Notes under the pieces: model-generated | Seen by the model: the letters and a program-made list of their open reading frames with translations, nothing else | The model's database searches: none | What the model was told of the DNA's origin: nothing | Shown: positions 36,378-44,872 of the stretch, one piece after another | Position numbering within the stretch: position 1 is the stretch's first letter | How the letters are laid out: each line of letters opens with the position of its first letter | Assembly (NCBI GenBank): GCA_028710895.1 | Contig: JAQTTH010000012.1 | Coordinates: 62,001-126,000, forward strand | Length of the DNA: 64,000 bases | DNA from: Paludibacter sp. | GTDB taxonomy: Bacteria > Bacteroidota > Bacteroidia > Bacteroidales > Paludibacteraceae | Reading direction: 5' to 3' | Position numbers and translations under genes: made by a program

Positions 36378-37424
36378 TCATTTCTCTTTCAGCTTCGCAA
36401 AATACATAGCAAACGAACGGTACAAAAAGTGTGTCCATTTACCAAACGGAACAATAATTAATGCCCATTGAACCAATACGGTAAAATGGAGAATGTACAG
36501 CCATTTATTCGTTTCCAGTATGTTCAGGTCGATAAACAGGCGGGTCATAAAGGCAGTTAAGCCCATTAAGAACAACCAGATTACGAAGAACCAATCCGAA
36601 GGTTGCGAGTGCTTGTTCAACGCCTTTTTCTTCTTCATGCGACTGTTTACAAAGTCCACGGTAACGATAAACACGATAGCACTCATTACATATCCAAAAA
36701 TGTTTACAGCAAGGTATTGAGTCGAAAACCAGTCCATAAACACGGTGGTAAACAGTAGCGACAGATAGCCAATCACCAATATAAAATGTTCGAACCAACG
36801 GAAGCGGTTATCGTCGCAGTCCAATGCACGTTTCTGTACGAACATGGTTACGAAAAACTCACCCATACTGCTTACATATTTCTTGAAAGGCACTTTCGTT
36901 CCGGGTTTCACGATGGTGAAATACCACATACGGATAATGTTCGGCACAAAAATTACCACCATAATGCTGGCAATGGCAATGGCTTCAAACAAATGACCCA
37001 CGTGCATCATGTGCTCCAGGTCGAAATCAGCGTTGAACGCAAACGCCAGCACACCAACAAAAGTCAGTACAAAGGCAGCAATGCTCAACGGCAGCGATTT
37101 ATACATCAGTCCCGAAAGACCTGTCCAGTCGTACTTGGCAGTCAGCCACCTACGAAGCGACATCATCAACTCGCCCGGCTCTGCCTGACGCGGACATTCC
37201 GACGAACATTCGCCGCAGTAGTAACATTCCCATGGTTTCAGGGATGCTTTAATATCATCTTCCAACCCAAGGGTGGTGTAGCGAATCATTTCGCGTGGAA
37301 ACGAGCTGTCGGCAGTCGAAAGCGAACAGGTTGCCGTACAGTTTCCGCAATTGAAACAGGCGTTGAAGTCGCTCGACCCATATTTTGATAATTCAGTTGC
37401 AAATTTTGGATTTACTCTTGACAT
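36378..37424 (-). CDS. QmoC/HdrC-HdrE-like membrane iron-sulfur subunit
   Basis: 348 residues from the ATG at 37424; the more upstream ATG lies in the adjacent repeat and is not used here. Residues 15-80 are HdrC-like with two [4Fe-4S] motifs, CFNCGNCTATC (Cys23, 26, 29, 33) and CYYCGECSSEC (Cys67, 70, 73, 77). Residues about 105-340 hold about six membrane helices with several His, like the b-haem anchor of QmoC, HdrE and NarI. It should pass electrons between the soluble flavoproteins and the quinone pool. Last gene of the sulfur-redox run, 124 bp after the QmoB-like gene with a hairpin element in the gap. Confidence 0.88.
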   Translation of the reverse strand: MSRVNPKFATELSKYGSSDFNACFNCGNCTATCSLSTADSSFPREMIRYTTLGLEDDIKASLKPWECYYCGECSSECPRQAEPGELMMSLRRWLTAKYDWTGLSGLMYKSLPLSIAAFVLTFVGVLAFAFNADFDLEHMMHVGHLFEAIAIASIMVVIFVPNIIRMWYFTIVKPGTKVPFKKYVSSMGEFFVTMFVQKRALDCDDNRFRWFEHFILVIGYLSLLFTTVFMDWFSTQYLAVNIFGYVMSAIVFIVTVDFVNSRMKKKKALNKHSQPSDWFFVIWLFLMGLTAFMTRLFIDLNILETNKWLYILHFTVLVQWALIIVPFGKWTHFLYRSFAMYFAKLKEK

Positions 37425-37439
37425 ATTCTTAGATTTTAA

Positions 37440-37540
37440 GACCCCCAACCCCCAAATGGGGGCTAAAGAAATGCTTGATACACAAGTTACGATTTATGTC
37501 GTAGTTGAGTCTTAAAGCCCCCATTTGGGGGTTGGGGGTC
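37440..37540. repeat. REPIN-like element A
   Basis: Two perfect 25-bp inverted arms (37440-37464 and 37516-37540), each built on GACCCCCAACCCCCAAATGG, with 51 bp between them. The arms contain a near-palindromic CCCCCAAATGGGGG. The left arm is identical to the one at 43356-43380. Confidence 0.95.
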
Positions 37541-37548
37541 TGACTGAT

Positions 37549-39747
37549 TTATTTCACTTTATAATAATAGTACGTTTCCTTCGCATCCATTCCGGCCGGA
37601 ACAACCACACCGTAACGGTTCATGGTCATCAGGTGGAAAGTAACAAGTTCACTGGCCAGTTTCGAGTTGGTGGCAATCTCGGGAATAGTGTTTTTCTCGT
37701 CGGTCATACCGGCAAGGATTTCGCGCCAAACCTGTGGATATTCTTTCATGCCTACTTTGCCTTCTTCTTCCACCTCAACAGTTTTGCCTGCACCTTTTTC
37801 TTTGATGTCAAAATCCATCACAAATCCGTCAATCATCGATTCAATTTCGTTGTCGGTGTATTGAGCAATTTCAATGGCATTTTCAGGACAAACAGGAGCA
37901 CAAATTCCACAACCTGTACAAACCGCTTTGTTGACACCCGCCACATGTTTTTCGCCAAACAACACTTTTTTGATAGCCGTATAATCGCACACATCAGAGC
38001 ATTTTCCGCACCAGGTACATTTATCGGCATCCACACGAGCAATAATCGGGTCAACCGAAACTGTGCCGCTTTTAAGCAATGCTGTAATTTTAGAAGCACC
38101 CGCCAATGACGACTGAACCGACTCGCTTACATTCTTTGGCCCCTGACAGGTTCCGCCAATGTATACGCCTTTGATTACGGTTTCAACCGGTTTAAGTTTC
38201 GGGTGAATTTCGTTGAAGAATTTATCGCGACCAATCGGAATTTTAAACAGTTCCGAAATGGTCGTTGCATCTTCGCGAGCCACCATACTGGTTACCAATA
38301 CCACCAAATCAGCTTCAATTTCCATTTCTTTCTTTGCGGTCAGGTAATCTTTTACCTTCACAATCGTTGATTTGCCATCAACCGAAACAACGGGCATTTC
38401 TTTTTCTTCGTATTTGAAATACAAATCGCCTTGTTTTGACGATTCGGCATACATTAATTCCTGTTTGCCGTAAGTCCGAATATCGCGGTACAAATGGTAG
38501 GTCTGGATATCTTTGTATTTTTCTTTCAGTTGCAAGGATGTGTGAATCGTCGAAGTACAGCATTGGCGCGAGCAGTATTTATTATCGCCTTTGGTCTGAC
38601 GACTTCCAACACAATAAATAAATGCCAAACTCTTGATTTGCTTGCCGTTGTAAACCAATTTATCCGGATTCATTTCCATCAAACGGTTCAATTCGGGCAA
38701 AGTCACTACATTCGAAATGGTTTTATAGCCATACTCTCCTTCTTTGGGTTGATAATGGTCGTAACCTGTAGTTACCAACACCGAACCTGCAATCAACGAA
38801 AGTGTTTGCGCTTCTTCGTTTAAATTAAGCGTAGATGCAAATTTCCCTGTAAAGTCAGTGGCATCTTTCAATGCTTCAGCCACTACAACAGGCACATCGG
38901 GTAATGCTTCAGGATAATTTTTATAAATAGCCTTTCGCTCCACCAACCCTAGATTAAAATCATCGTGAACGTTCACCGGACATTCATCCATAGCACGTTT
39001 CACTGCTTTTTTGTCTGCATTCGGGTTGATATAACGTGGTTTCACCTTGATATCCACTGTGAAATTCCCCAAACTGCCCGATACTTTCTCCACCGTTGCT
39101 CCGGTAAATATGGTAATGTTCGGAAACTTCTTCATTTCGTTGTAAAGAGCTGCCACCACTTCTTTTCCATTCTGATTGGTAGGGAAAAGCGTTTCTTTCT
39201 GCGCAATGCGTCCACCGACAAAGAAATCTTTTTCAATCAGGAAAACTTCATTACCCGAACGGGCTAAATCGATAGCTGCTTTCATGCCCGAAACACCTGC
39301 ACCGATAACCAATGCTGATTTTTTTACCGACAATTCAATATTTTCCAACGATTCGGAATACGATACGCGGTTGATACCGGCGCGGATAAGTCCGGCGGCT
39401 TTCACGGTTGCTTCGCGTGGACGGTCGCTGTGCGGCCACGAACATTGCTCGCGGATATTCACCTGCACATAGTTCGACGGATTCAAACCCGCACGTGCAG
39501 CCACATTCTTAAACGTATGTAAATGCAATTTGGGCGAGCACGAGCAAACCACAATAGCATCCAGATTATTTGCTTGTATGTCAGCGACCATGTCTTTTTG
39601 GTTGGAGTCGGCACACGCAAACATCACATCTTTGGAGACAACTACGTTTTCCTCTTGATGGAACATTTTGCCCAACTCTTCCACATCCACGTAATCGGAA
39701 ATATTTCCGCCGCAATGACAAATATATACACCTATTCTTTGTTTCAT
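37549..39747 (-). CDS. HdrA/QmoB-like FAD iron-sulfur subunit
   Basis: 732 residues. An N-terminal HdrA domain (KQRIGVYICHCGGNISDYVD, VVCSCSPKLHLHTF) is followed by an FAD Rossmann motif (ALVIGAGVSGMKAAIDLARS), the HdrA Fe-S region (CVGSRQTKGDNKYCSRQCC) and a C-terminal pair of [4Fe-4S] motifs (CTWCGKCSDVC at 577-587 and CTGCGICAPVC at 610-620). This is the HdrA layout, closest in context to QmoB. HdrA proteins pass or bifurcate electrons at the flavin. It starts 6 bp after the other HdrA-like gene. No HdrB (CCG domain) gene is present, which is why Qmo is a better model than Hdr. Confidence 0.88.
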   Translation of the reverse strand: MKQRIGVYICHCGGNISDYVDVEELGKMFHQEENVVVSKDVMFACADSNQKDMVADIQANNLDAIVVCSCSPKLHLHTFKNVAARAGLNPSNYVQVNIREQCSWPHSDRPREATVKAAGLIRAGINRVSYSESLENIELSVKKSALVIGAGVSGMKAAIDLARSGNEVFLIEKDFFVGGRIAQKETLFPTNQNGKEVVAALYNEMKKFPNITIFTGATVEKVSGSLGNFTVDIKVKPRYINPNADKKAVKRAMDECPVNVHDDFNLGLVERKAIYKNYPEALPDVPVVVAEALKDATDFTGKFASTLNLNEEAQTLSLIAGSVLVTTGYDHYQPKEGEYGYKTISNVVTLPELNRLMEMNPDKLVYNGKQIKSLAFIYCVGSRQTKGDNKYCSRQCCTSTIHTSLQLKEKYKDIQTYHLYRDIRTYGKQELMYAESSKQGDLYFKYEEKEMPVVSVDGKSTIVKVKDYLTAKKEMEIEADLVVLVTSMVAREDATTISELFKIPIGRDKFFNEIHPKLKPVETVIKGVYIGGTCQGPKNVSESVQSSLAGASKITALLKSGTVSVDPIIARVDADKCTWCGKCSDVCDYTAIKKVLFGEKHVAGVNKAVCTGCGICAPVCPENAIEIAQYTDNEIESMIDGFVMDFDIKEKGAGKTVEVEEEGKVGMKEYPQVWREILAGMTDEKNTIPEIATNSKLASELVTFHLMTMNRYGVVVPAGMDAKETYYYYKVK

Positions 39748-39753
39748 GATTTC

Positions 39754-42531
39754 TTAGTTTTTTGCGAGAGTGAAACTTTTTTCCGTACTTTTCTCTCTCT
39801 TATTCAAATATCCCGCAACCTCAGACGCAGCAGCACCTGCCGATAAAATTGAATCAGGAATATCTTTTGGCCCAGAAGCCGCACCGGCTACATAAACGCC
39901 TTCGATACTTGTCAGTGAAGGACTTATCAGTTCGTCGGTTTGTTTTACGAAGTTGAATGCATCCAGTTCCAGCTTATCGCTTTTGAACATGTCAGGCACA
40001 TCTTTATTTGGAACAACGCCCACCGAAAGTACAACCATATCGTGTTTGGCTTCTTTTACAATGCCTTTAATAGTATCTTCGTAACGAAGAATCAAATCGC
40101 CACTGCCGTTTTCATTTTCATGGATTTTGGCTACTTTCCCCTTTACAAAGTTCACTCCCATCGATTTTGCTTCCATGAAAAATTCTTCATAACCCTTACC
40201 AAATGCACGGATATCCATATAATAAATGGTGATATCAGCCATTGGCAATGCACCCATCAGAAGTTGCGCTTGCTTAATGGAATACATACAGCAAATCTGC
40301 GAGCAAATCGGATTGTTTTCGCAATCGGCACCGCAACCGGAGTTCTCAATGGCCGAGTCGCGCGAACCGGTACAAAGCACATAAGCAATATTATCCGGCA
40401 CCTTTCCATCGCCCGGACGAAGTACATTATTGAACGGACGAGTTGGCGCAATGAGTCGGTCCATTTGCATGGAGTCAATTACGTTAGCATATTTGGTGTA
40501 ACCGTAGTTAGGCTTTCCACTTGGTGGGAAAAGCTTATATCCGGTTGTCACGATTACTGATTTTACAGAGGTGTTGATCATCTGTGTTTTCTGACTGAAA
40601 TCAATGGCATTCGACGGACAGGCAGCCACACATTGATGGCATTCGCGGCAATTACTGCAATCCAGACAGCGTTCGGTGCTGGCTTTCAACTCGGCTTCGG
40701 TGAATGTTTGTTCCACTTCTTCCCAACTTGTTGCACGTTGTGCTAATGGCATCATAGCATTTTGAATTGGGGCAGCGACAGTATATTTCTTGTTCAACAC
40801 TTTTGCTTTATCAATAGCCGGCAATTTGTCGCCATCCTGGAAATCCAGCATATTCAGACCACGTAGGTATTTATCCATGTAGAAAGCAGCTTTTTTCCCT
40901 TGTCCGGCAGCCTCAATAAGTGTTGTAGCTCCTGTTACGGTATCGCCACCGGCAAAAATATAGTCAATCGAGGTTTGCAGCGTTTTTTTGTCAGCTACAA
41001 TGGTTCTATTTTTATTCAAATCAATTTGTCCGGCAAATGGCGAAGTGGATGGTTTCAAGCCAATGGCTTCAATCACATAATCCACATTTTCGATATATTC
41101 CGAACCTTTTACTGCTTCCGGACTTCGGCGACCGCTGGCATCTTTTTCGCCCAACTGCATTTTTACCAACTGAACCTGTTTGATCGTTCCGTTTTCGCCC
41201 ATGTATTTTACCGGATTGCGGAGAATCATTATTTCAACGCCCTCTTCTTCAGCCTCGTGAATTTCGGGTGCAAAACAAGGCATTTCTTCACGGCTACGAC
41301 GGTAAACAACAATCACTTTTTCAGCACCAAGACGCAATGAAGTACGCGCCGCATCGATAGCAGTATTACCACCACCAATTACCATCACACGTTTACCTTT
41401 CAAGTCTTCTTTTTTACCGATATTCGATTCGCGAAGGAAATGGAGACAATCAACAACACCTTTCAAATCCGAGCCTTCTGTTTTTGAAGAAACTGCATCG
41501 TGTGTTCCGACTGATACAAAAACTGCGTCGTAACCTTCTTTTTTCAGAGCTTTTAAATCCGTAATCTTTTTGTTTACTTCAATCGTAACGCCAAGTACAG
41601 TAATGTTTTTCAAGTCGCGATCCACCACACTTTTGGGAGCACGATATTCCGGCAAAGCCAACCTCAACATACCACCGGCAGCAGGAGCAGCTTCGAAAAT
41701 AGTCACGGTATGACCTTTCAATGCCAAATGATAAGCGGCTGTAATTCCAGCAGGGCCTGAACCGATAACAGCGATTTTCTTATCCGTTTTATTTTTAATT
41801 TCCACTTCGGGAGCTTCGGGGTATTTTTCGTAATACCAGTCGGCAAAAAAGCGTTTTGTTTTGCGAATATCCACAGCACCTTCCAGACTGGCACGTGTGC
41901 AGGCATTCTGGCAAGGAGCGTAACAGGCACGACCCAGACTTCCGGGGAAAGGTATATCTTCGAGATGAAGCTTCATGGCTTCTTCGTACTGACCATTGCG
42001 GGCCAACGTAATGTATCCGTAAGGTTTCACACCACCCGGACATTCGTTGATACAAGGAGCCGAATGCCCCTGACGGTCGATGGTAGCAATACGCGGATTA
42101 GCGAGGTTGAATGGAATATAGGCCACTTTACGTCCGGCCAGATTGGCGTTATAATCATCGCTGCGTACTTCGGGGCAAACGGCTTCGCACTCGGCACAAC
42201 CGGTACAATCTTCCTGAATCACATAGCGGGCTTTTTTGGAAATCTGCACATTGAAATCATCACCAACTTTGGTAATTCCATCAATTTCGCTGTTCAGTGC
42301 AAGAGTAATATTGGGATGACGAGCCGTTTCCGACATCTTTGGAGTGGTGATACAGGCCGCACAGTCGAGCGTTGGGAAAACCTTGCTCAACTGAATCATT
42401 TTACCGCCAATCGATAAGGCTTTGTCCACCAACAATACTTCGTGACCCATATCAGCAAGGCTCAAAGCAGCTTCCTGACCGGCAATTCCGCCACCAATAA
42501 CGAGAGCGTCGTAGTTTTTATCTTGTTTCAT
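39754..42531 (-). CDS. HdrA/QmoA-like flavoprotein with inserted GltD-like NAD(P)H module
   Basis: 925 residues from the ATG at 42531; the upstream in-frame ATG would overlap the mvhD-like gene. Residues 1-125 are the first part of HdrA (VIGGGIAGQEAALSLADMGH, FPTLDCAACITTP, ferredoxin motif CTGCAECEAVC). Residues about 155-565 are a whole GltD-like unit: Fe-S Cys at 160, 164, 203, 207 and 211, FAD motif VIGSGPAGITAAYHLALKGH, NAD(P)H motif VIGGGNTAIDAARTSLRLGA, and the FAGGD end. Residues about 620-640 add a Cys-rich Fe-S motif (CLDCSNCRECHQCVAAC). Residues 655-925 complete the HdrA fold (CTGSRDSAIENSGCGADC, PICSQICCMYS). It may link NAD(P)H to the Hdr flavin. Confidence 0.85.
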   Translation of the reverse strand: MKQDKNYDALVIGGGIAGQEAALSLADMGHEVLLVDKALSIGGKMIQLSKVFPTLDCAACITTPKMSETARHPNITLALNSEIDGITKVGDDFNVQISKKARYVIQEDCTGCAECEAVCPEVRSDDYNANLAGRKVAYIPFNLANPRIATIDRQGHSAPCINECPGGVKPYGYITLARNGQYEEAMKLHLEDIPFPGSLGRACYAPCQNACTRASLEGAVDIRKTKRFFADWYYEKYPEAPEVEIKNKTDKKIAVIGSGPAGITAAYHLALKGHTVTIFEAAPAAGGMLRLALPEYRAPKSVVDRDLKNITVLGVTIEVNKKITDLKALKKEGYDAVFVSVGTHDAVSSKTEGSDLKGVVDCLHFLRESNIGKKEDLKGKRVMVIGGGNTAIDAARTSLRLGAEKVIVVYRRSREEMPCFAPEIHEAEEEGVEIMILRNPVKYMGENGTIKQVQLVKMQLGEKDASGRRSPEAVKGSEYIENVDYVIEAIGLKPSTSPFAGQIDLNKNRTIVADKKTLQTSIDYIFAGGDTVTGATTLIEAAGQGKKAAFYMDKYLRGLNMLDFQDGDKLPAIDKAKVLNKKYTVAAPIQNAMMPLAQRATSWEEVEQTFTEAELKASTERCLDCSNCRECHQCVAACPSNAIDFSQKTQMINTSVKSVIVTTGYKLFPPSGKPNYGYTKYANVIDSMQMDRLIAPTRPFNNVLRPGDGKVPDNIAYVLCTGSRDSAIENSGCGADCENNPICSQICCMYSIKQAQLLMGALPMADITIYYMDIRAFGKGYEEFFMEAKSMGVNFVKGKVAKIHENENGSGDLILRYEDTIKGIVKEAKHDMVVLSVGVVPNKDVPDMFKSDKLELDAFNFVKQTDELISPSLTSIEGVYVAGAASGPKDIPDSILSAGAAASEVAGYLNKREKSTEKSFTLAKN

Positions 42532-42536
42532 ATTAC

Positions 42537-42956
42537 TTAGTCTTCTAAACTGGCTAAAATTTTCCCGTAGTTTTCCATGTGGCTGGCAAATGGTTCGGCA
42601 CAAACCGAGCAAAGAGCCGCCATACGCACACGTCGGGGATTAATATTTTTCTCTTTCATCAACTCCTGTGAAGCTTCAACAATGGTGTTGGTGTGTTCGG
42701 CACAACGCGAGCTGTAGGAACATTCGTGCCCGTCGGCAGCTATAAAAACGCCGTCAAAACCATGTTCCAATGCGTGCAGAATCCATTTGGGTTTTATACC
42801 CGAAGAGCAGGGTAAACTGATAACGTAAACGGAAGGAGCGTAATGAATTTTACGCAAACCTGCCTGATCAATCCCAGGGTCGGAGATTTTATCGGTGGAG
42901 AAAACCAAAATCTTGGGCGATTTGGTTGCGGGTGATTGATTTATAGTAGTTGACAT
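42537..42956 (-). CDS. MvhD-type iron-sulfur protein
   Basis: 139 residues matching the small MvhD/FrhD family (annotated hydrogenase iron-sulfur subunit). Five Cys are spaced as usual for its [2Fe-2S] site: Cys50 (SLPCSSGIKPKWIL), Cys79 and Cys85 (GHECSYSSRC), and Cys116 and Cys119 (ALCSVCAEPF). In methanogens MvhD carries electrons into HdrA; in Qmo complexes the domain is fused to QmoB. No hydrogenase genes are nearby. Five bp separate it from the HdrA-GltD gene, so the two are coupled. Confidence 0.88.
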   Translation of the reverse strand: MSTTINQSPATKSPKILVFSTDKISDPGIDQAGLRKIHYAPSVYVISLPCSSGIKPKWILHALEHGFDGVFIAADGHECSYSSRCAEHTNTIVEASQELMKEKNINPRRVRMAALCSVCAEPFASHMENYGKILASLED

Positions 42957-43034
42957 AAGCTTATTTACGATTTATCAATTTACTTTTTACCATTAAAAAT
43001 CAATAGCTTGAGTAAACTGAACGGACATTTAAGA

Positions 43035-43078
43035 TACACATAGCAAATTACTATGTGTACCTAATGTGCCTAATGTGG
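43035..43078. repeat. Hairpin and doublet repeat between tusA-like and mvhD-like genes
   Basis: Perfect 9-7-9 inverted repeat (TACACATAG / CTATGTGTA, 43035-43059) followed by two direct copies of CTAATGTG (43061-43078). It fills much of the 131-bp gap and could act as an mRNA processing or attenuation element. Confidence 0.6.
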
Positions 43079-43087
43079 TTCAAAAAA

Positions 43088-43339
43088 TTATTCTTTGATT
43101 AAAAACAAGCGGCTGAAGCTATCTTCGTCGTAGAAACCAAGATATTCGTGACCTACTTTTTCGCACCAGCGTGGAATATCGTTTTTAGTACCTTCGTCAG
43201 CCGAAAGGATTTCCATGATTTCGCCTGATTCAAGTTCACCAATTGCCTTTTTGGCTGCCAAAAGCGGTCCGGGACAAGCTGTTCCACGGGCGTCTACTAC
43301 TAAATTCGATGTTACGTTTTTTAATTCTTCGGTTGTCAT
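43088..43339 (-). CDS. tusA: TusA family sulfur carrier protein
   Basis: 83 residues, the TusA/SirA fold. The family motif CPGP is at residues 22-25 (GTACPGPLLAAKKAIGELES), with Cys22 as the sulfur-carrying residue, and the rest (GEIMEILSADEGTKNDIPRW) is typical. TusA proteins carry persulfide between enzymes in the cytoplasm. Next to a DsrE2-like gene and Hdr/Qmo-type genes it most resembles TusA of dissimilatory sulfur pathways rather than the tRNA thiolation one. The gene-level name is a family call. Confidence 0.9.
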   Translation of the reverse strand: MTTEELKNVTSNLVVDARGTACPGPLLAAKKAIGELESGEIMEILSADEGTKNDIPRWCEKVGHEYLGFYDEDSFSRLFLIKE

Positions 43340-43355
43340 AATTGTTAGTTATTTA

Positions 43356-43469
43356 GACCCCCAACCCCCAAATGGGGGCTAAAGACCAAGTTTTTAATTA
43401 TTGTTTAAAAGTTGTATATTTTGTATTAAATAGTCAAATCTTTGATCCCCCATTTGGGGGCAGGGGGTC
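43356..43469. repeat. REPIN-like element B
   Basis: Left arm (43356-43380) identical to that of element A; right arm (43446-43469) is its diverged inverted copy. The spacer is 65 bp. The right arm reaches into the stop codon of the DsrE2-like gene. It fills the 128-bp gap before tusA. Confidence 0.9.
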
Positions 43470-44034
43470 AAATGAAAAGTTGCATTGCACTTTCCCCGGC
43501 ATCTGCCACAAAAGTGGCGGCTCCGGCATAGCGCAAATGTGGGTAATCAATCATTTCTTCGGCCTTGAAACCCATAAGTCCCATTGACATTTCGCAAATG
43601 GTAATTTCAACACCCAGTTCACCGGCTTGTTTGAACATTTCACCCAACGACATTACATTTTGCTTTTTCATGAGCATTTTTATCATCATTGGCCCCATAC
43701 CGCCCATATTCATGTTTGATAAAGACAGCTTGTCTTTTCCGGTCGGAAGCATCATTCCAAACATCTTAGAGATAAAATCTTTCCCTTTTGGATGTTTTTT
43801 CGGATCACGAAGTGCTGAAAGTGACCAAAAAGAGAAGAAAAGTTTTACCTGAGTATCCATAGCTGCAGCAGCTAACGAGATAACCATGGCAGCCAATACT
43901 TTGTCTAAATCGCCGGAAACAACAGCAATTGATAATTGATCTTTGCGGTTCTTCTCCAATTTTCCAACTTTCTTGGTTAATACGTCTACTTGTTTTTGGA
44001 GCATTTGTAGGGTAACTTCATTTGTGTTTTCCAT
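43468..44034 (-). CDS. DsrE2-like (DsrE/DsrF/DrsH family) sulfurtransferase
   Basis: 188 residues from the ATG at 44034, chosen because it starts the family-like N-terminus and lies 43 bp after the -7 box. Residues 8-30 form a short coiled coil (LQMLQKQVDVLTKKVGKLEK). Residues 32-188 match PF13686: LSIAVVSGDLDKVLAAMVIS, KLFFSFWSLSAL, a Met/Gly-rich loop, and the conserved Cys147 in ITICEMSMGLMG. DsrE2 proteins accept or pass sulfane sulfur and are usually coded with tusA, as here. Membrane association is often proposed. First gene of the leftward run. Confidence 0.9.
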   Translation of the reverse strand: MENTNEVTLQMLQKQVDVLTKKVGKLEKNRKDQLSIAVVSGDLDKVLAAMVISLAAAAMDTQVKLFFSFWSLSALRDPKKHPKGKDFISKMFGMMLPTGKDKLSLSNMNMGGMGPMMIKMLMKKQNVMSLGEMFKQAGELGVEITICEMSMGLMGFKAEEMIDYPHLRYAGAATFVADAGESAMQLFI

Positions 44035-44076
44035 ATCTATTAAATTTAAGTGAGTTTGATTACAGAAACTTTTCAG

Positions 44077-44109
44077 CAAATGTATTGCAGAAAAATTTAT
44101 TTATTCCAA
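44077..44109 (-). promoter_or_regulatory. Promoter of the dsrE2-tusA-hdr run
   Basis: TACATTTG on the minus strand at 44077-44084 with TTG at 44107-44109, 22 bp apart. The likely start point is near 44070, so the Crp-like palindrome is centred about 75 bp upstream, near a class I activator position. Confidence 0.55.
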
Positions 44110-44121
44110 ATAATCGCGTGC

Positions 44122-44133
44122 ATGTACGTACAT
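44122..44133. promoter_or_regulatory. 12-bp palindrome in the divergent promoter region
   Basis: ATGTACGTACAT is self-complementary and lies between the leftward promoter and the Crp-like site. It could be a second operator. Confidence 0.4.
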
Positions 44134-44137
44134 TATT

Positions 44138-44167
44138 TTGTGATATGCATCACATTGTATATATTTG
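44138..44167 (+). promoter_or_regulatory. Promoter of the Crp/Fnr gene
   Basis: TTG at 44138-44140 and TATATTTG at 44160-44167, exactly 19 bp apart. The TTG start at 44165 lies in the -7 box, so the true gene start is the ATG at 44195. Confidence 0.75.
44139..44154. promoter_or_regulatory. Crp/Fnr-type operator
   Basis: TGTGATATGCATCACA is a perfect palindrome and fits TGTGA-N6-TCACA exactly. It overlaps the -33 element of the crp-like gene (suggesting autorepression) and lies upstream of the dsrE2 promoter (suggesting activation). Confidence 0.75.
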
Positions 44168-44194
44168 CAGCTTATTCCTTCAAATCAATACAAT

Positions 44195-44872
44195 ATGCAA
44201 AACGATTGTAGAAATTGTCCTTTCAAAACCAAGGCCACATCCATGCTAAGTGAATGCAGTCTGGATCAACTGACATCAAATCACTTAGAACTTAAATTAA
44301 AGAAAGGTGATTCGATTATTAAACAGGGAACATACTCGACCAATGTAGTTTTTTTGCGAACCGGTTTGGCCAAAATTCACCTGGCAGGTCCTTATACTGA
44401 GCAAATTGTAAAAATGGTAAATGCGCCCAGCTACCTGGGATTGCCCACTACTTTCGGCAGCAAAATCAATCAGTATTCGGTTACAGCGGTTTCGGATGCC
44501 GAAGTTTGTTTTATTGATTTGGAAGTTTTTCAGAATATATTGGATGAGAATAAAGAATTTAACCGCGAAATAATTCAGGAATTTTGCAAAAACGAGCTTG
44601 AATCGTTTCATCGGTGTGCCAACCGTACGCAAAAGTTGATTCGGGGAAATATGGCAGATGCAATACTCGATTTTGCTGATAAAATTTTTAAATCGGATAC
44701 TTTTATGCTCCCACTTTCGCAAACAGAATTTGCAAATCTGGTGGATACAAGCCGTGAAAGTGTTAGTCGGGTTCTTACAGAATTCGACAAAGATGGCATA
44801 ATTAGTGTTAAAGGAAGACAAATAGAAATATTAAACAAGAAATCTCTGCAATTGATAAGCCAAAATGGTTAA
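44195..44872 (+). CDS. Crp/Fnr family transcriptional regulator
   Basis: 225 residues from the ATG at 44195. The N-terminus carries three Cys (Cys5, Cys8 and Cys21 in QNDCRNCPFKTKATSMLSEC), which could hold a redox or Fe-S signal. A cyclic-nucleotide-type beta-roll follows (about 30-140, IIKQGTYSTNVVFLRTGLAK), then a C-terminal HTH (FANLVDTSRESVSRVLTEFD). It is divergent from the sulfur-redox genes and a consensus Crp/Fnr palindrome lies in the shared region, so it most likely controls them and itself. Confidence 0.92.
   Translation: MQNDCRNCPFKTKATSMLSECSLDQLTSNHLELKLKKGDSIIKQGTYSTNVVFLRTGLAKIHLAGPYTEQIVKMVNAPSYLGLPTTFGSKINQYSVTAVSDAEVCFIDLEVFQNILDENKEFNREIIQEFCKNELESFHRCANRTQKLIRGNMADAILDFADKIFKSDTFMLPLSQTEFANLVDTSRESVSRVLTEFDKDGIISVKGRQIEILNKKSLQLISQNG

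Follow-up and report, generated by a model that had tools for sequence, protein, structure and literature searches.

What does a redox complex built from Hdr- and Qmo-like subunits do when it is encoded together with the sulfur carriers DsrE2 and TusA? This question is raised by a gene cassette of Paludibacter sp. (Bacteroidales; GenBank assembly GCA_028710895.1, 4.90 Mb, 99.95% complete), which lies between positions 36378 and 44872 of the window, i.e. the whole stretch of 64,000 nucleotides analyzed here (contig JAQTTH010000012.1, positions 62,001 to 126,000). Its gene content is conserved among relatives of the order, and it is separate from the Qmo complex that is linked to adenylylsulfate (APS) reductase, Apr. 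We tentatively propose, with a probability of about 0.4, that the complex encoded by the cassette is linked to NAD(P)H and menaquinone and reduces sulfane sulfur bound to its carriers.

The cassette and its subunits

The cassette comprises six leftward genes and a divergent regulator gene (positions in the window; aa, amino acids; ORF, open reading frame):

36378..37424, minus strand: QmoC-like subunit, 348 aa from ATG; a TTG start extends it to 37448 (356-aa ORF)
37549..39747, minus strand: HdrA_B, second HdrA-like flavoprotein, 732 aa
39754..42531, minus strand: HdrA_A, HdrA/QmoA-like flavoprotein with insert, 925 aa from ATG; longest ORF 952 aa, to 42612
40666..42066, minus strand: GltD/NfnB-like insert in HdrA_A, approximate, ORF residues about 183-649
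42537..42956, minus strand: stand-alone MvhD/FlpD iron-sulfur subunit, 139 aa; Pfam FlpD 93.3 bits
43088..43339, minus strand: TusA sulfur carrier with CPGP, 83 aa; Pfam TusA 74.6 bits
43468..44034, minus strand: DsrE2-type sulfurtransferase, 188 aa from ATG; longest ORF to 44079; Pfam DrsE_2 148.0 bits
44165..44872, plus strand: divergent CRP/FNR-type regulator, 235-aa ORF; Pfam cNMP_binding and HTH_Crp_2

ORFs and matches to Pfam and NCBIfam confirm the six leftward genes, which an initial annotation had recognized from the letters of the window; all six ORFs are intact at the positions given there. The annotated span holds for these genes, but the plus-strand regulator inside its end had gone unmentioned. 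Likewise, the two HdrA-like flavoproteins had been correctly recognized, but the GltD/NfnB-like insert in the 925-aa HdrA_A had been overlooked. The intergenic gaps from the QmoC-like gene to the DsrE2 gene measure 124, 6, 5, 131 and 128 bases, and 130 bases separate DsrE2 from the regulator. Pfam finds 4Fe-4S and FAD/NAD domains in both HdrA-like proteins and the QmoC-like protein.

HdrA_A is an HdrA/QmoA-like core that is interrupted at its ferredoxin region, which is the architecture of HdrL. The limits of the insert were derived from Pfam domains, phmmer and the alignment with insert-free relatives, and its coordinates were set by hand. Pfam places Fer4_20 and Pyr_redox_2 (GltD/NfnB-like) at ORF residues 183-571, and phmmer matches Nfn/GltD-type chains at 184-585, some of them to 663, and HdrA at 650-944. 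The nearest solved relatives of the insert are 9bov, NfnA (9n5u), 8oh5, subunits of dihydropyrimidine dehydrogenase, NfnI and small chains of glutamate synthase. Its GGGN loop and YRR...MP stretch are invariant in 16 aligned HdrA_A sequences, and we take the YRR motif to be a mark of NADP(H). The HdrA_A ORFs of insert-free relatives measure about 430-450 aa where complete. The AlphaFold model of HdrA_A is weak (pLDDT 63.9, pTM 0.49) and was not taken into the fold search. With the NCBIfam model HdrA2, HdrA_B scores 576 and HdrA_A 459 bits, both below the cut-off of 1100.

Our alignments of selected homologues show little or no variation at the positions predicted to hold clusters, haem or sulfur. 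HdrA_B keeps its N-terminal cysteine set, the CxxxCC motif and the ferredoxin cysteines (nearly) invariant in 116 homologues at 45% identity or more, and the five cysteines of MvhD are present in 111/111 homologues at 50% or more. The same identity threshold applies to the carriers: Cys22 of TusA, which has the CPxP carrier motif as CPGP, is kept in 93/93 homologues, and the cysteine of the CEMSM stretch of DsrE2 in 85/85. The DsrE2 model (AlphaFold pLDDT 84.4) has DsrE 3pnx as its top PDB match (TMt 0.92), and the protein thus combines the DsrE fold with the transfer cysteine. Both carriers fall short of the respective NCBIfam models (TusA equivalog 46.8 bits vs a cut-off of 78; SulfCarrDsrE2 63.5 vs 210). 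The QmoC-like protein consists of an HdrC-type dicluster part and a membrane part with six transmembrane-like segments; its eight cysteines and His 221, 321 and 340 (numbering of the 356-aa ORF) are conserved in 109/109 homologues of 330-400 aa at 25% identity or more. Cys15, 18 and 115 of the regulator are kept in 79/79 homologues above 38% identity.

A short element, CCCCCAACCCCCAAATGGGGGCT, is present at 37442-37464, 37516-37538, 43358-43380 and 43445-43467, forming two inverted pairs in the QmoC–HdrA_B and the TusA–DsrE2 gap. Three copies are exact and one has 3 mismatches; 100 shuffles yielded 0 matches.

Conserved linkage and separation from Apr-linked Qmo

The distribution of the cassette was investigated with HdrA_A in a sample of 295 genomes of the order, the window genome included, and in a scan of named genomes from which the best 80 of 360 relatives were taken, a set that is biased toward the form of the window. 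A hand count documents the cassette in at least 51 of the 294 other order genomes, from 39 families. At least seven of them encode the full-length HdrA_A fusion (64-74% identity), and at least 44 further genomes have HdrA_A without insert (57-70%), a state that is less sure for the few that are cut by contig ends. The best 80 of the 360 named relatives are mostly metagenome-assembled genomes of Bacteroidota, many of them called Bacteroidales, and include Paludibacter (the nearest with 92-96% identity in the core), Proteiniphilum, one Mariniphaga, one Draconibacterium and two Candidatus Aminicenantes (62-63%); Petrimonas sp. IBARAKI, whose genome is complete, bears the cassette as well. A search of the phylum with HdrA_B matched 76 of 296 genomes including that of the window, the others at only 33-40% identity. 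This sample is thin for the order of the window, and the HdrA_A search of the order resolved the weak matches.

Linkage was counted in both sets, which share some genomes, after setting aside loci short of flank; a divergent contig-end fragment (L068, genome G444) was left out. MvhD accompanies the core in 44/44 order and 66/66 named loci, TusA in 44/44 and 65/65, and HdrA_B in 50/50 and 80/80. A DsrE-type gene, a term that takes in small or divergent DsrE, is present in 36/38 order loci (missing in L251 and L253) and 60/60 named loci. Among loci with both flanks present, DsrE2 at 40% identity or more occurs in 22 of the order set and 53 of the named set, and only a divergent DsrE in 9 and 4. 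QmoC including its membrane part was found in 43/43 order and 66/71 named loci; three of the five negatives are cut by contig ends (L085, L134, L149) and two have a replacement (L157, L159). A homologue of the divergent regulator adjoins 30/37 order and 50/59 named cassettes. The insert is present in 7/52 order and 71/80 named loci, with two of the nine named negatives (L082, L095) being contig-end fragments. The genes flanking the cassette vary from locus to locus, and shared neighbourhood alone therefore does not account for its gene order.

In L157 and L159 the place of QmoC is held by an HdrC-like dicluster protein of 100-101 aa followed by a CCG protein of 315-323 aa (L157:13114-14405, L159:6647-7909). 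Both loci carry the insert; of the two, only L157 was included in the tree, where it has a near-basal position in the clade. The CCG domain handles disulfides in HdrB, and the variant hints at disulfide-type chemistry. HdrC-like, CCG and HdrA-like genes are also located 3' of the cassette in L065 (G319; L065:15935-18790) and form the divergent G444 fragment (L068:172-3274). The QmoC proteins of the cassettes exist in two forms, one 56-98% and the other about 29-39% identical to that of the window (L126, L132, L143, L148 and others); given these two identity classes, an exchange of the membrane subunit is conceivable.

The subunit types match those of QmoABC in outline, and the QmoC-like protein of the window matches the NCBIfam model qmoC (NF038018) with 154.9 bits, which would be in line with an ordinary QmoABC serving an APS reductase. 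The initial annotation had reported no aprAB and no dsrAB within the window and had named an ordinary Qmo, with aprAB or sat elsewhere in the genome, among the findings that would speak against a separate complex. The genome-wide search for AprA, AprB and DsrA gave no match over cut-off: AprB (PF12139) has 0 matches, as in 14 control genomes, although this model does detect AprB in the relative L193; AprA (TIGR02061) has a single 22-bit match vs a cut-off of 641.75; DsrA (TIGR02064) has a single 40-bit match vs 392.85, located in an 840-aa protein with NirB-like domains. AprA exceeds its cut-off in six of 53 order genomes, namely the cassette genomes put in, including that of the window, which is not among the six, and G444 with its divergent fragment only. 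Among 14 control genomes from other families of the phylum, AprA passes in three, all of them within the ten of family f18, which we took for Chlorobiaceae, judging by its DsrA and apr-qmo genes and its size.

The presence of AprA in six of the 52 relatives is the other point in favor of an ordinary Qmo, but in four of these six (L192-L195) aprA adjoins a second qmoA of its own, in three of them together with qmoC and a qmoB with fused MvhD; the remaining two aprA loci stop at contig ends. AprB precedes aprA in L193, and misbinning of the aprA-bearing draft genomes is possible. The aprA-linked QmoA, QmoB and QmoC are 31-33%, 25-30% and 24-32% identical to the cassette proteins. The cassette QmoCs of the window and three other genomes score 154.9, 185, 207 and 221 bits and miss the qmoC cut-off of 300, whereas the Apr-linked equivalents of L193 and of the f18 genome L197 reach 384 and 510 bits. 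In a quick tree of 71 rows, for which the program warned of long branches meeting, the cassette HdrA_A forms one clade (100) and the Apr-linked QmoA and QmoB another (99); fragments (L082, L149, L137, L230, L223, L246, L250) and rows more than 82% identical to a kept one were left out. Given the lack of AprA and AprB matches, the second aprA-linked qmo of relatives, the separate clades and the missed qmoC cut-off, we rejected an ordinary Apr-Qmo for the window and regard it as highly improbable. The same tree requires at least two state changes for the insert, and its basal rows (Aminicenantes L160, L150, L157) carry it, which suggests that the insert may be ancestral and was lost twice, with the root unproven.

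The initial annotation had proposed a quinone-linked complex with sulfur carriers that is distinct from Qmo and for which no terminal reductase is known. This gains support from the linkage without aprAB, which the annotation had itself named as a supporting pattern, from the separate clade and from the second, aprA-linked qmo of four relatives. The proposal was borne out in part; the insert, the FNR-type regulator, an optional DsrC/DsrK-like block and the HdrC plus CCG replacement had not been foreseen. In L192-L195, where aprA stands beside qmoA, DsrA is not over its cut-off; APS chemistry without DsrA is possible there.

Proposed function and rival explanations

The carriers are present in nearly every locus and their cysteines are conserved; carrier-bound sulfane sulfur is therefore the likeliest partner of the complex. 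QmoC makes menaquinone a likely membrane partner, the insert points to NAD(P)H as a partner in the form of the window, and chemistry on disulfides or persulfides would be in keeping with the CCG protein that L157 and L159 encode. In the proposed mechanism HdrA_A with its NAD(P)H domain, HdrA_B, MvhD and QmoC would form a membrane-anchored electron-transfer complex. DsrE2 and TusA would take up cytoplasmic sulfane sulfur as protein persulfide, and the complex would cleave the carrier persulfide, yielding sulfide; the electrons would be supplied by NAD(P)H via the GltD-like insert and/or by menaquinol via QmoC. Persulfide reduction could thereby serve the anaerobe as an electron sink, and the FNR-type regulator would set the cassette under oxygen control. 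What we observe are the genes, their domains and linkage, the conserved redox residues and the separation from Apr-Qmo; we infer complex formation, the persulfide substrate, the direction, the NAD(P)H and menaquinone partners, the oxygen control and the site of S-S cleavage.

Relatives with DsrC and a DsrK-like protein may pass the persulfide to DsrC and reduce it there. Where 5.2 kb or more of sequence upstream of MvhD is available, a DsrC block is located directly upstream of the cassette in 10/57 named and 2/36 order loci. It comprises an aminotransferase-V/desulfurase-like gene, DsrC, a small HmcE-like membrane protein, a CCG protein and a cysteine desulfurase family gene, and its DsrC keeps both C-terminal cysteines in 9/9 unique sequences. 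In the block of L143 the HmcE-like protein scores 37.8 bits vs a cut-off of 275, and the CCG protein matches TmcB (303), HmcF (301) and DsrK (262 bits, cut-off 400), all below cut-off; the cysteine desulfurase family gene is over its cut-off with 431.7 bits. A block of DsrC, membrane protein, DsrK-like protein and desulfurase sits away from the cassette in L199-L203 and L207. The DsrK-like protein occurs in 9/53 cassette genomes, the window genome not among them, and beside DsrC in 8/8 loci inspected, sometimes joined to the cassette. It is found in 0/25 other order genomes, which were hand-picked as having no core match among the matches listed, and in 2/2 f18 genomes only at 31-32% identity. 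DsrC of any type is present in 28/53 cassette genomes, with 0 matches in that of the window. DsrA exceeds its cut-off in 0/53 cassette genomes vs 9/10 f18 controls; DsrB was not sought.

Four cassette genomes have a second cluster (L204, L205, L206, L208; at about 8.7-12.6 kb). It encodes a CRP-type regulator, a 409-412-aa protein (Pyr_redox_2 in L205), presumably SQR-like, a protein of 190-222 aa that L206 seems to lack, a member of the DsrC family without the first cysteine (L204, L205) and a 166-167-aa protein that is DsrE2 by Pfam in L205.

The reductive direction is favored because Petrimonas is described as an anaerobic reducer of elemental sulfur (S0) in an excerpt of PMC11664143, because Petrimonas sp. 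IBARAKI has no PF00384 enzyme, and because no genes for further oxidation were found. Among ten named cassette genomes searched, a PF00384 enzyme is present in four and absent from IBARAKI and five others. The single PF00384 protein of the window genome has 1240 aa, includes NAD(P)H-type and BFD domains and is encoded close to a NirB-like protein; we take it to be an assimilatory-type nitrate reductase. The window genome also contains a single stand-alone double-CCG protein of 240 aa, presumably LutA-like by its size, which is a possible HdrB partner.

Several observations weigh against this proposal. The statement on Petrimonas is made at the level of the genus, not of strain IBARAKI, and the same paper lists Petrimonas among the fermenters that feed other S0 reducers (PMC11664143, excerpt). 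The cassette of the window has no HdrB and therefore no recognized disulfide-cleaving site, and since the insert is scarce in the order, NAD(P)H cannot be the donor in general. The pairing of DsrE/TusA with Hdr-like genes is more familiar from sulfur oxidizers; the DsrK-like, DsrM-like and QmoC proteins stay below the NCBI cut-offs for these names; and no family match to a YedE-type transporter was found in the window genome. This genome also encodes a flavin disulfide reductase of 763 aa that contains three rhodanese domains, 3' of a rhodanese-like gene (L276:8478-10769, contig C15), which is a possible independent persulfide reductase. Our estimate is kept below one half because the argument rests on genus-level physiology and absence.

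The opposite direction would be an oxidation of TusA/DsrE2 persulfide with electrons passing to menaquinone via QmoC and to NAD(P)+, as in the sHdr or reverse-Qmo systems of sulfur oxidizers. DsrE/TusA genes next to Hdr-like genes are indeed known from such organisms (excerpts of PMC4175335 and PMC6067878), and the four genomes with the second cluster have a flavoprotein near a TusE/DsrC-like gene, plus DsrE2 in L205. We nevertheless consider it unlikely, since nothing was found that could carry the oxidation to sulfite or sulfate: AprA stays below cut-off in 46 of 52 relatives and DsrA in 52 of 52, and neither is in the window genome, the only one in which HdrB was sought genome-wide. Slightly less probable still is an NAD(P)H:menaquinone oxidoreductase, possibly bifurcating, for redox balance, in which DsrE2 and TusA would only deliver sulfur for maturation or tuning. 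The GltD/Nfn-type insert, the two HdrA flavoproteins and the quinone-type QmoC module are in accordance with this role, but the near-constant carriers with their conserved cysteines exceed the needs of maturation, the insert occurs in only seven of 52 order loci, and L157 and L159 encode a CCG protein.

By a narrow step the least probable of these three is a module for detoxification and sensing of persulfide or reactive sulfur that is tied to the FNR-type regulator and does not conserve energy. The divergent regulator is frequent and has three conserved cysteines, and the window genome contains nine rhodanese matches as well as thioredoxin-like and flavin reductase genes, but nearly all loci encode a membrane subunit whose histidines are conserved, which suggests respiratory coupling. 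One locus of this genome, L279 (contig C8), combines a rhodanese match, thioredoxin-like ORFs (by eye), a thioredoxin-fused Pyr_redox_2 protein, a second Pyr_redox_2 protein and a DUF1847 protein.

Extending the proposed reduction of carrier-bound sulfur, Bacteroidota might respire sulfur without molybdenum sulfur reductase, DsrAB and AprAB, with protein-bound persulfide accepting electrons from an HdrL-HdrA-MvhD-QmoC complex that is fed by NAD(P)H and menaquinol; in some lineages the persulfide would pass through DsrC to a DsrAB-independent DsrK-type protein. We regard this broader scenario as doubtful. With the cassette, these anaerobes may be able to discharge electrons onto sulfur while dispensing with the common enzymes of sulfate and sulfite reduction. 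For sulfur turnover among anaerobic Bacteroidota, the cassette offers a marker as well as a set of genes that can be tested, and surveys built on dsrAB, aprAB or psr/phs would overlook the genomes that bear it. In this phylum, a match to qmo or hdr is insufficient on its own to infer sulfate reduction. The role of carrier-bound sulfur can be tested separately from sulfite reduction in the two-system genomes, in those whose DsrC block comes without DsrA, and in the HdrC plus CCG variant.

Comparison with known systems

Among the matches listed from the open-licence PMC literature, titles and abstract starts describe neither the combination of genes in the cassette nor its spread in the order nor its coexistence with Apr-linked Qmo. 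The cassette was likewise not met in excerpts of PMC7596348, of the work on DsrEFH type II (PMC13293266) and of a survey of disproportionation markers (PMC12998232), and the excerpt of PMC6085437 has no bearing on it.

The sHdr system of sulfur oxidizers shares Hdr-like genes with TusA/DsrE carriers, and DsrE2/TusA relays near Hdr-like genes have been described from such organisms (PMC4175335, excerpt); the cassette of the window differs by its lack of HdrB. The DsrC and DsrK-like pair of relatives resembles DsrC with DsrK/TmcB/HmcF-type proteins; it differs by the lack of DsrA over cut-off in the 53 genomes and by a DsrK score of 262 bits vs 400, and the window genome has neither partner. A GltD/Nfn-related NAD(P)H partner is known in DsrL, which serves DsrAB (PMC7596348, excerpt).

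The closest precedent for HdrA_A is HdrL of Desulfobacterium autotrophicum, a predicted fusion of HdrA and glutamate synthase encoded beside mvhD (PMC2702500, excerpt), which is also named in an excerpt of PMC12142623. By architecture alone, HdrA_A is such a glutamate-synthase-type fusion next to mvhD. HdrL is described as soluble, one copy is followed by dsrABC, and QmoC, TusA and DsrE2 are not named as neighbours in the excerpt of PMC2702500. Qmo-like complexes whose role is unknown have a precedent in type II Qmo, which occurs with or without Apr/Dsr (PMC10504309, excerpt). Compared by description only, it comes without mention of a TusA/DsrE2 linkage or a GltD insert in the excerpted text, and the main text of that paper does not contain ‘Bacteroid-’. 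The ‘new type’ of the initial annotation is softened by HdrL and type II Qmo as precedents (excerpts of PMC2702500 and PMC10504309). With the Apr-linked QmoABC of type I the cassette shares two HdrA-like flavoproteins and an HdrC/six-helix subunit of the quinone type. It is distinguished by a separate MvhD, which is fused to QmoB in type I, by TusA and DsrE2 in the operon, by a genome without aprAB and by a clade of its own.

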